From: Blautia sp. Marseille-P3201T | Lineage (GTDB): Bacteria; Bacillota; Clostridia; Lachnospirales; Lachnospiraceae | DNA: 64,000 bases | Assembly: GCF_900120295.1 (NCBI RefSeq) | Contig: NZ_LT635470.1 | Coordinates: forward strand, 372,001 to 436,000 | Direction of reading: 5' to 3' | Shown: positions 8,055 through 10,868 of the stretch, in pieces | Layout of the letters: each line of letters starts with the position of its first letter | How positions within the stretch are numbered: the first letter of the stretch is position 1 | The notes under the pieces: generated by a model | What the model saw: only the letters and a program-made list of their open reading frames with translations | The model's database searches: none | Told to the model about the DNA's origin: nothing | Program-made: the position numbers and the translations under genes

Positions 8055-8201
8055 GTGGTATAATAATTGCACGATGTGCAATTTAAGCCGATTTCATCGG
8101 CTTACTGCCGTATGGCAGATTATACCAGGCAAGCCACGGCTTGAAAAGTAAATACCCTTGCAAGGTGCTTCCTTTTCTGCGCACGTGGTATAATAATTGC
8201 A
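8055..8201. repeat. Hairpin-array element flanked by 17-bp direct repeats
   Basis: GTGGTATAATAATTGCA occurs at 8055-8071 and again at 8185-8201, exactly 130 bp apart. The DNA between holds five successive perfect or near-perfect hairpins: 8065-8083, 8085-8103, 8105-8118, 8130-8143 and the palindrome 8156-8165. No coding frame fits. Each direct repeat contains TATAAT with a TGG extended -10, so the repeat itself carries promoter sequence, and the right copy probably drives polA. It looks like an inserted or duplicated small structured element (REP/MITE-like). Dispersal elsewhere in the genome cannot be tested from this window. Confidence 0.7.
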
Positions 8202-8225
8202 TTAAAAAATTTTAAGGAGAATTCA

Positions 8226-10868
8226 ATGAGGGAAAAAATCCTGCTGATAGATGGACACAGTATATTAAACAGGGCATTTTACGGACTGCCTGATTTGACA
8301 AATGCAGAAGGACTTCATACAAATGCGATTTATGGATTTTTAAATATTTTATTTAAGATTTTGGAGGAGGAAAAGCCGGATTATCTTACCGTTGCTTTTG
8401 ATTTGCATGCTCCTACCTTCCGTCACAAACAGTATGAAGCATATAAAGGAACGAGAAAGCCTATGCCAATGGAGTTGAGAGAGCAGATACCGGTTATGAA
8501 GGATGTGCTTTCTGCCATGGGTGTTACCATAATTACCAAAGAGGGATATGAAGCGGATGATCTTTTGGGAACCGTAGCAAAAAAAAGTGAAGAAAAGGGT
8601 ATGGATGTAACCATTCTTTCCGGTGACAGGGATTTACTGCAGTTGGCAACTTCTCATATTTGTATTCGTATACCAAAGACAAAAGGTGGAAAAACAACCA
8701 TTGAAGATTATTATGAAGAGGATGTAAAAGAGGCTTATCAACTTACACCTTTACAGATTATTGAATTGAAAGCATTGATGGGAGATACAGCCGACAATAT
8801 TCCTGGGCTTCCGGGTGTAGGAGAAAAGACAGCAACCAAAATTTTACTTGAATATGGAACAGTCGAGAATGCCAAGGCTCATGCGGAAGAATTAAAACCG
8901 AATAAAGCAAAGACTGCTTTTTTGGAACATTATGATTTGGCTGTATTAAGTAAAGAATTGGCAACCATTTGTATTGACAGTCCGATTGAATATGACTGGG
9001 AAGGTGCAAGAATTCATAATCTGTATACACCGGAAGCGTATGAATTTTTCAAAGAATTGGAATTTAAAAATTTTCTTTCCCGTTTTGAGGATACAGGAGA
9101 AGAAAATAAAATAGAAGAAAGTTTCCGGTATATTACGGATTTCACAGAAACAGAGGAAATCTTTAAAAGAGCTATACAGGAGCCGGTAGTGGGAATTGAG
9201 CTACTGGAAGAAAAAGGACAGATTTTAGGCTTAGGTCTTGCATGGGGAGAAGAAGAAACAGAGGTATACGGTATTTTACCACAGGGATTTGTGACAGAAG
9301 ACTATCTCATTGGAAAAGCGCAGGAGCTTTGCCAACAGGGAAAACTGGTTGCCTCTTTAAATATTAAGGCAATGCTGCGTTATATGGATTTAAAATCTCA
9401 CAACGATATGTTCGATGCCGGACTTGCAGCTTACCTTTTAAATCCTTTAAAGTCAGAGTACACTTACGATGATATTGCAAAAGAGTTTTTGGGAGAAATG
9501 CTTCCTGCAAAGGAAGATTTACTGGGTAAATTATCCTATATAAAGGCTGCTGATGAAAAAGAAGAAGAACTTGCCAAAAGCGTCTGCTATATGGCATATA
9601 CTGCTTTTAAATCCAGAACACCGCTTTTCGAAGCTCTGGAAAAGGAAAATATGAAAAAGCTTTATACAGATATGGAAATGCCTCTTTTATTTACCCTTGC
9701 AGATATGGAAAAAGAGGGCATTTTAGTAGAAGCGGAGGCATTAAAGGAATACGGAGAAAAGCTTCAGGTTCGTATTGAAGCTTTGGAAAAAGAAATCTGG
9801 GAGCAGGCAGGAGAAGAATTTAATATTAATTCCCCGAAACAGCTGGGTGTGATATTGTTTGAAAAATTAGAGCTTCCAGGAGGGAAGAAGACAAAGACAG
9901 GCTATTCTACAGCGGCAGATGTGTTGGAAAAATTAGCTCCTGAGCATAAACTGGTAGCTGATATTTTAGAATACAGACAGCTCACAAAGCTGAAATCGAC
10001 TTACGCAGATGGACTTGCCAATTATATTGCAGAGGACGGAAGAATACATTCTACTTTTAATCAGACAATTACTGCAACAGGCAGAATTAGCAGTACAGAG
10101 CCGAACTTACAGAATATACCGGTTCGTACAGAGCTTGGAAGAATGCTTCGAAAAGTATTTATTCCAAAAGATGGGTTTGTATTTTTAGATGCAGATTATT
10201 CGCAGATTGAACTTCGTGTGCTGGCGCATATGTCAGGAGATGAAAAATTAATTCAGGCATATCAGGAAGCGCAGGATATTCATAGAATTACAGCTTCTCA
10301 GGTATTTCATATTCCTTTTGATGAAGTTACACCTCTTCAAAGAAGAAATGCCAAAGCTGTAAATTTTGGAATTGTATATGGTATCAGTTCTTTTGGGCTT
10401 AGTCAGGATTTGAGTATCAGCAGAAAAGAAGCTGCTCAGTATATTGAAAGTTATTTTCATACTTATCCAAAAATAAAAGGATTTTTAGATGGATTAGTAG
10501 AAGAAGCAAAGGAAAAAGGTTATGTTTCCACGCTGTTTCACAGACGCAGACCAGTGCCTGAGCTAAAATCCAGCAACTTTATGCAGCGTTCTTTCGGAGA
10601 AAGAGTGGCTATGAACTCTCCAATTCAGGGAACAGCAGCAGATATCATTAAAATTGCCATGATACGGGTCAATAAGCGATTGAAGGAAGAAAATTTAAAG
10701 TCCAGATTAGTTCTGCAGGTACATGATGAACTTTTGATTGAAACAGCAAAAGACGAAGTGGAGCAGGTTTCTGCTATTTTGGAGCAGGAGATGAAAGAAG
10801 CAGCACATTTATCTGTAGCTCTTGAAATTGATATGCATACAGGGGAAAACTGGTACGAAGCAAAATAG
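8226..10868 (+). CDS. polA: DNA polymerase I
   Basis: 880 residues. The 5'-3' exonuclease domain (~1-290) has 'DLHAPTFRHKQYEAYKGTR' and the helix-3-turn-helix 'DNIPGLPGVGEKTA'. A degenerate 3'-5' exonuclease-like domain follows (~305-470): the proofreading DxE motif is replaced around 'VVGIELLEEKG', so proofreading is probably absent, as in many Gram-positive Pol I enzymes. The polymerase domain has motif A 'DADYSQIELR' (~655), motif B 'RRNAKAVNFGIVYG' (~706) and motif C 'VHDELLIE' (~831). It acts in Okazaki fragment processing and repair. It heads a same-strand run with coaE, a YycJ-like hydrolase, ACT and PFL genes. Confidence 0.97.
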   Translation: MREKILLIDGHSILNRAFYGLPDLTNAEGLHTNAIYGFLNILFKILEEEKPDYLTVAFDLHAPTFRHKQYEAYKGTRKPMPMELREQIPVMKDVLSAMGVTIITKEGYEADDLLGTVAKKSEEKGMDVTILSGDRDLLQLATSHICIRIPKTKGGKTTIEDYYEEDVKEAYQLTPLQIIELKALMGDTADNIPGLPGVGEKTATKILLEYGTVENAKAHAEELKPNKAKTAFLEHYDLAVLSKELATICIDSPIEYDWEGARIHNLYTPEAYEFFKELEFKNFLSRFEDTGEENKIEESFRYITDFTETEEIFKRAIQEPVVGIELLEEKGQILGLGLAWGEEETEVYGILPQGFVTEDYLIGKAQELCQQGKLVASLNIKAMLRYMDLKSHNDMFDAGLAAYLLNPLKSEYTYDDIAKEFLGEMLPAKEDLLGKLSYIKAADEKEEELAKSVCYMAYTAFKSRTPLFEALEKENMKKLYTDMEMPLLFTLADMEKEGILVEAEALKEYGEKLQVRIEALEKEIWEQAGEEFNINSPKQLGVILFEKLELPGGKKTKTGYSTAADVLEKLAPEHKLVADILEYRQLTKLKSTYADGLANYIAEDGRIHSTFNQTITATGRISSTEPNLQNIPVRTELGRMLRKVFIPKDGFVFLDADYSQIELRVLAHMSGDEKLIQAYQEAQDIHRITASQVFHIPFDEVTPLQRRNAKAVNFGIVYGISSFGLSQDLSISRKEAAQYIESYFHTYPKIKGFLDGLVEEAKEKGYVSTLFHRRRPVPELKSSNFMQRSFGERVAMNSPIQGTAADIIKIAMIRVNKRLKEENLKSRLVLQVHDELLIETAKDEVEQVSAILEQEMKEAAHLSVALEIDMHTGENWYEAK

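Follow-up and report, generated by a model that had tools for sequence, protein, structure and literature searches.

The hairpin block before polA in a Blautia genome as a likely copy of a small non-autonomous mobile element targeting −10 promoter boxes

The hairpin block between galT and polA

The window analysed here is a stretch of 64,000 nucleotides from a Blautia genome of 2.94 Mb (10 contigs). In it, the intergenic spot between a galT-like gene and a gene that we take, by recognition of its translation, to be polA holds two exact copies of GTGGTATAATAATTGCA, at 8055–8071 and 8185–8201, which form 17-bp direct repeats 130 bp apart. There is no further exact copy within the window and one further site with up to three mismatches (shuffle expectation, mean 0.42). 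Each repeat carries the extended −10 box TGGTATAAT, at 8056–8064 and 8186–8194, and about this sequence is what the sites have in common as direct repeat. Repeats, spacing and boxes are as given in the original prediction, which was made from the letters of the DNA. The block folds better than shuffled sequence on either strand (z −4.5 for the plus strand, 8055–8225; z −5.8 for the minus strand, 8055–8201). The features of the locus are as follows.

8056–8064, plus strand: left box TGGTATAAT, an extended −10; a single extended −10 lies at the matching place in nine relatives
8065–8194, plus strand: putatively inserted class A unit, 130 bp, from 3′ of the left box through the end of the right box (alignment A1)
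8065–8083, plus strand: hairpin 1, AATTGCAC/GTGCAATT; 4 of 8 pairs with compensatory change
8084–8104, plus strand: hairpin 2, TAAGCCGA/TCGGCTTA; 7 of 8 pairs with compensatory change
8105–8118, plus strand: hairpin 3, CTGCC/GGCAG; 4 of 5 pairs with compensatory change
8119–8126, plus strand: antibox ATTATACC, able to pair with GGTATAAT of the left and right boxes
8134–8188, plus strand: right long hairpin with internal-loop motif AGNAAAT...GCTTCCT; consensus helices 5 and 6, 9 of 19 pairs compensated
8186–8194, plus strand: right box TGGTATAAT, the element end, with which most copies of class A close on the right
8195–8201, plus strand: AATTGCA; at the same place G008 has GTTTGCATTAAAAA and G003 a truncated unit
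8226–10868, plus strand: polA, an ORF of 880 aa with a match in 20 of 20 genus genomes

Of the five hairpins originally described, those at 8065–8083, 8085–8103 and 8105–8118 are real and conserved, whereas those placed at 8130–8143 and 8156–8165 are better taken as parts of the single long hairpin at 8134–8188, the pairing of which is conserved between copies. Absent from that account was the antibox, a perfect reverse complement of GGTATAAT. The complementarity of left box and antibox closes the three hairpins into a cloverleaf, and the block is better described as a three-hairpin cloverleaf followed by one long hairpin. That it encodes no protein and belongs to no known RNA family was borne out, all Rfam matches at the locus lying below the gathering score.

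The element had also been thought to have copied the polA promoter at its edges, which is not how we now see the two boxes. In the best reading, the left box is the native −10 of polA and the insertion target, and the right box is the element's own, because its TGG pairs inside the element's right hairpin. The right box is possibly a new proximal extended −10 of polA. The bases AATTGCA beyond it are a probable remnant of an older truncated unit, since G003 and G008 keep related bases there.

Dispersal, insertion point and orientation

Class A units are dispersed. The window's genome (G000) holds full copies at seven sites, three of them in tandem, and fragments only at four; the closest copies, with 99% and 97% identity, are at C10:738427 and C5:85451, and further sites are less alike. 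Within the genus, 6 of 20 genomes have class A matches at E 0.1 or better, G011 with a single weak match (E 0.0145) and G003 with two. A family-wide search, stricter than the genus search in its filters and threshold (E 1e-6), found class A in 5 of 150 genomes from 149 genera, the window's own among the five. Scanning a collection of 84,980 species genomes with the conserved internal-loop motif of the right hairpin returned 113 named stretches, 109 of which are titled Lachnospiraceae or its genera, while the other 4 say just Bacillota or Eubacteriales. The titles name Mediterraneibacter, Acetatifactor, Blautia, Dorea, Lachnoclostridium, Roseburia, Extibacter, Mordavella, Scybalocola and unnamed Lachnospiraceae, genera that we take to be members of the family. 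Over 115 sites, one unit is present in 95, two in 15, three in 3 and four in 2. Phage and plasmid records held no match to the class A unit, and viral contigs none to the class A right hairpin, the class A left part or the class F pattern. Assembly contigs start or stop inside the element at L083, L105, L112, L142 and L147, a hint that draft genomes undercount its copies.

The original prediction, that the block is an inserted structured element, is supported by this dispersal in its own genome and in relatives. Its stated counter-case was a fixed leader, present at polA of all relatives and nowhere else. Copies do lie elsewhere, and a full class A unit at polA is absent from all 19 other genomes of the genus. 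Sites with a single box and no unit, of the kind it had proposed to compare, also exist, at polA and beyond. Among the 20 genus genomes, G000 has the class A unit at polA, G008 a class B unit (period 81 bp) and G003 the box followed by a truncated unit; nine (G001, G002, G006, G012, G014, G015, G017, G018 and G019) carry one TGCTATACT or TGCTATAAT downstream of the galT terminator; and the remaining eight have a different upstream gene.

Single boxes without a unit were found at L230 (TATGGTATAATGCG), L234 (TATGCTATAATACA), L233 (GTGTGGTATAATGGG) and L248 (AGGTGTTATAATGAGCGGTAAC), the bases at L248 resembling those past the right box in G000. Where G000 carries two units and a partial one (L036), a single TGGTATAAT or TGCTATAAT stands behind the same upstream flank in G003 and G004; G008 has a single box followed by a possible trace of hairpin 1. 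A single TGGTATAAT or TGCTATAAT likewise stands at the L038 locus in G003 and G004, and at the L035 locus G003 has TGTTATAAT and then GAGCGGTAAC, similar to the sequence past the right box in G000. The comparison of filled and single-box sites thus places insertion exactly 3′ of a fixed target that is kept on the left, and its simplest reading is that the left box is native and the right box was brought by the element.

Copy number also differs between orthologous sites: L037 has two units and L047 one; elsewhere L046 has one unit and a part, L041 a part and L013 a box with a trace. Age and decay mark many of the sites. Remnants of units persist at L040 in G008 and G003, which makes these deletions rather than empty sites, and at the L042 (mutS2-like) site the right box is missing and relatives lack a clear box. 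At two promoters of G008 (L247/L249 and L241), class A units contain, or are directly followed by, a separate element of ~150 bp that has terminal inverted repeats (GAAGTTGTCGCATTAA...AAGTGACAACTTC at L247).

The units usually face their genes. Among the named sites, 109 have a right box; at 89 of these a start codon on the same strand, accompanied by a ribosome-binding-like sequence, follows at 9–138 nt (median 46), as against opposite-facing starts behind the left box at 21 of 103 named sites, the count over named sites taking in all 113 stretches; in a mixed set the figures were 75 of 87 and 19 of 87. The downstream genes, surveyed at 24 genus loci and in 80 of the 113 named stretches, look functionally unrelated and include what we presume, from reading translations, to be polA, thyA-like, uvrA-like, HAD-like and other genes.

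Fold and pairing in class A and other cassettes

In the consensus of 23 units (alignment A1), box GGTATAAT is followed by three hairpins, the antibox ATTATACC, a long hairpin whose internal loop is conserved, and a second box. Of 48 pairs, 24 show compensatory change, a number not reached in any of 500 shuffles, and 96.7% of cells pair, compared with 31–41% for slid partners, in a test whose structure was derived from the same alignment and whose shuffles ignore relatedness. One of its five measures, that of further pair types, was reached by 58 of 500 shuffles.

Plus-strand RNA under selection should favour G–U over A–C pairs. In 77 class A copies (the best 77 of the 139 rows of alignment A2) there are 3,441 Watson–Crick cells, 36 wobbles, 46 A–C and 91 others, a count that leaves out one invariant U–G pair (77 cells). 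A crude count over 19 tRNAs from the same loci gave 20 wobbles to 8 A–C (28 odd cells of 228). These figures speak for selection on the folding of DNA, or on both strands alike; free decay after insertion would also blur a wobble signal.

The box–antibox stem is nearly invariant in alignment A1 and has no compensatory change there. Perfect pairing of GGTATAAT with ATTATACC is found in 92 of 127 class A-like matches, the rarer of which include chance matches such as L253. Covariation is seen in exceptions to this pairing. In L180, from a Roseburia sp. MAG, the left box is TGGTACAAT, the antibox ATTGTACC and the right box TGGTACAAT, all three having changed together (GGTACAAT/ATTGTACC/GGTACAAT in box/antibox/box form). 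One compensated pair each is seen in L100 (GATATAAT/ATTCTATC) and L078 (GATATAAT/ATTATATT), next to one mismatch in the former and one wobble in the latter. A G at the left box is found in 95% of 86 left boxes and in 26 of 80 native TGnTATAAT boxes, a preference that carries a bias from the use of GG in searching for the box.

Some copies depart from the consensus. Hairpins 2 and 3 are lacking in L083, L102, L042 and L281, and the antibox is also missing in L102/L284, L281, L285 and L288, so that the antibox would either have been lost later from such copies or be dispensable. In Lachnoclostridium sp. An76 (L288/L291), internally deleted class A units with a period of 78 bp and no antibox are tandemly repeated. 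Shortened units of this kind may still multiply, in which case the antibox would be unneeded, or it may have been lost afterwards.

Class A is not the only cassette at these promoters. A scan of 22 genomes for two boxes 60–110 nt apart gave 13 matches in 6 genomes, comprising three of class D (Acetatifactor muris), four of class E (G016), one of class B and five of shortened class A, whereas the reversed-pattern control gave zero in 22 of 22. Class B, in which an antibox is not evident, occurs in G008 at polA and at one more gene. Different classes sit behind the same upstream flank, both at polA (A in G000, B in G008) and at a HAD-like gene (A in G013, E in G016). The orthologous HAD-like gene with another upstream flank has class F in G001 (one unit) and G014 (two) and a box only in G002; all three carry, upstream, the decayed right half of a class F unit, and units may therefore have been lost from G002. 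Dispersed copies of class F, with up to 19 matches, occur in 8 of 20 genus genomes, and none of the eight is among the six with class A. At gathering score, Rfam gave nothing in five loci of classes B, D, E (two) and F. At L334 (G018:C87), a class F unit is apparently interrupted by an insert of ~160 bp with inverted ends (AGTGTGCTGTATCA...TGATACAGCACACT).

In classes F and E, too, box and antibox largely match. The class F box TATACTAG and antibox CTAGTATC give seven Watson–Crick pairs in 18 of 20 units, the eighth pair not forming, and the first pairs are partly built in because CTAG in the antibox and TA....AG in the box were set by the search pattern. One compensated pair and one mismatch are seen in L323 and one wobble in L316. 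In class E, GTATAATGT/ACATATGCC stands against GTATAATAT/ATATATGCC; of its four units, L292 fits more poorly and the other three fit, L287 among them by way of a compensated pair. A tentative generalization, which we would sooner doubt than assert, is that these cassettes form an undescribed superclass of promoter-parasitic Lachnospiraceae elements, with at least two populous classes unrelated in sequence, A (TATAAT) and F (TATACT), and the three small classes B, D and E. Their layout (box, hairpins, antibox, hairpin, box) would be converged or inherited, the core promoter would be found by DNA–DNA pairing, and the mover would not be a recognizable Y1 transposase.

Mechanism, alternatives and known systems

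We lean towards reading the hairpin block before polA as a copy of a small, non-autonomous mobile element that inserts 3′ of a −10 box, perhaps as folded single-stranded DNA in the manner of IS200/IS605. That it is a mobile element of some kind we regard as highly likely; on the single-strand route we are nearly evenly divided, with doubt slightly ahead. New copies would enter directly 3′ of TATAAT in an extended −10 box, usually in the direction of transcription. The element's last bases being TGGTATAAT, the gene would keep a −10 box, and the new right box would again be a target, which would explain the head-to-tail tandem arrays. Dispersal, the unit-free sites with a single box, the boundary at the box, the tandem arrays, the bias in orientation, the covariation of box with antibox and the other cassettes at these promoters are seen in the sequences themselves. 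We infer a folded single strand cut 3′ of the left and right boxes, an antibox 5′ of the right hairpin that would select the target by pairing, as IS200/IS605 guides do, and an enzyme that would act in trans. With each unit bringing an extended −10 of its own close to the gene, silencing need not follow from insertion. Effects on expression of the stacked 5′ hairpins in the leader and of one −10 per unit would be a tolerated by-product, and no host function of the element need be supposed. By analogy, an IS608-type mechanism would be expected to give a target left in place on the left side, an element end that repeats this target, an antibox on the 5′ side of a hairpin, a strong bias in orientation and growth in tandem; according to PMC5934647, IS608 inserts precisely 3′ of a target recognized by guide pairing, and for IS608-type single-strand transposition we also draw on PMC8266576.

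If this is right, using a −10 box as target is an unusual solution to a parasite's problem. The element would land where open complexes presumably expose single-stranded DNA, leave the coding region unbroken and a −10 box behind, and alter the 5′ leader of housekeeping genes, with −10 boxes stackable in tandem. It would offer, in common gut bacteria, a testable case of target choice by simple DNA–DNA pairing over ~8 nt, as against the tetranucleotide of IS608.

Direct repeats at the bounds of the unit, together with the existence of antibox-less copies, would also suit a satellite of a site-specific integrase, in which the unit circularises and recombines at the TGGTATAAT core through a serine or tyrosine recombinase encoded elsewhere, the hairpins being incidental or enzyme-binding. 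TGGTATAAT is tabulated in PMC11357604 as the attachment site of two serine-integrase prophages of Streptococcus agalactiae, next to a HAD hydrolase. Such a satellite nevertheless leaves the box–antibox covariation, the common layout of different cassettes and the conserved folding unexplained, and the unit is unmatched in phage and plasmid records, as is its right-hairpin pattern in viral contigs; we consider it unlikely. We think it very unlikely that the block is a conserved regulatory RNA leader (riboswitch-like or an attenuator) spread with its promoter by duplication, even though the fold is strong and conserved, the internal loop is conserved and the unit usually lies between promoter box and gene. 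The downstream genes look unrelated, orthologous promoters lack the unit or hold another cassette, wobbles do not exceed A–C mismatches in the 77 copies, Rfam gave no match above gathering score, and the box half of the closing stem would lie upstream of the expected transcript start.

A last alternative needs no transposition enzyme, invoking local duplication in tandem together with gene conversion between −10 boxes. It would fit the varying copy number between close relatives and the near identity of neighbouring units in some arrays. Alone, however, it cannot carry a unit to unrelated promoters or put different classes behind the same flank, and as a full account we hold it highly improbable. 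It probably contributes to the growth and loss of arrays.

The candidate mover we pursued was a Y1 transposase. Y1_Tnp (PF01797) is present in 14 of 22 genomes, carriers and non-carriers alike, and was not detected in G000, G013, G016 or A. muris (G198), all of which have class A or E, G013 and G016 as drafts. There were 31 Y1 matches overall; none of the 12 Y1 loci examined, of 15 fetched, holds a class A copy. With neither linkage nor clear co-occurrence, a Y1 transposase as linked mobiliser was set aside. RAYT-like Y1 proteins of 258–315 aa are encoded in six carriers reached via named loci (G196, G197 and G199–G202; G202 and G170 look like one genome, with identical coordinates). At L273, L274 and L276, where the flanks fetched hold no class A copy, such proteins lie beside housekeeping-like genes.

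Among the open-licence papers listed in our searches, no title or opening of an abstract describes the element, and among the matches listed for its sequence strings there was only an 11-letter string, in unrelated papers. Some classical MITEs carry promoters, and MITEs target the TA dinucleotide. In size and lack of coding the element resembles classical MITEs (Correia, RUP, ERIC), but it targets a −10 box and has no terminal inverted repeats, the repeat search at the locus giving the ends as direct repeats only. With IS200/IS605 it has in common that a short target, retained in the left flank, lies exactly 5′ of the insertion (PMC5934647). In IS200/IS605, guides beside a hairpin pair with the cleavage sites (PMC5934647), and the antibox 5′ of the right hairpin, covarying in L180, L100 and L323, may be such a guide, although some copies lack it. 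PATEs, the ends-only derivatives of IS200/IS605, are often moved in trans (PMC7290912). Unlike IS200/IS605, the element has as target a 9-bp promoter element rather than 4–5 nt and, with pairing longer and simpler than in IS608, a single 8-nt antibox for both boxes and ends; no linked tnpA was found, and the IS200-type loci tested hold no class A copy. Since the Y1 loci tested gave no positive evidence of ends shared with an autonomous Y1 element, we do not file it as an IS200/IS605 member.

The BOX elements of streptococci are likewise modular, structured intergenic repeats of variable internal copy number that were judged parasitic, whereas the same passages of PMC3049150 report terminal inverted repeats and target duplications for them and mention no promoter box as boundary. 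How REP-like repeats move is a question on which the element, if correctly read, would bear. REP/BIME repeats with TnpA-REP (RAYT) are also short, palindromic, extragenic and non-autonomous, and repeats of the CGTC kind are reported without a linked transposase in PMC3733652. They differ in that REPs are 20–40 bp with a GTAG/CGTC tag, while the units here are ~80–130 bp, bounded by −10 boxes and co-oriented with genes. The class A unit is ~130 bp with several hairpins, and no GTAG/CGTC tag is seen at its aligned ends. GTGG, which is reported as a variant tag of one family of such repeats, does occur where its right box starts.
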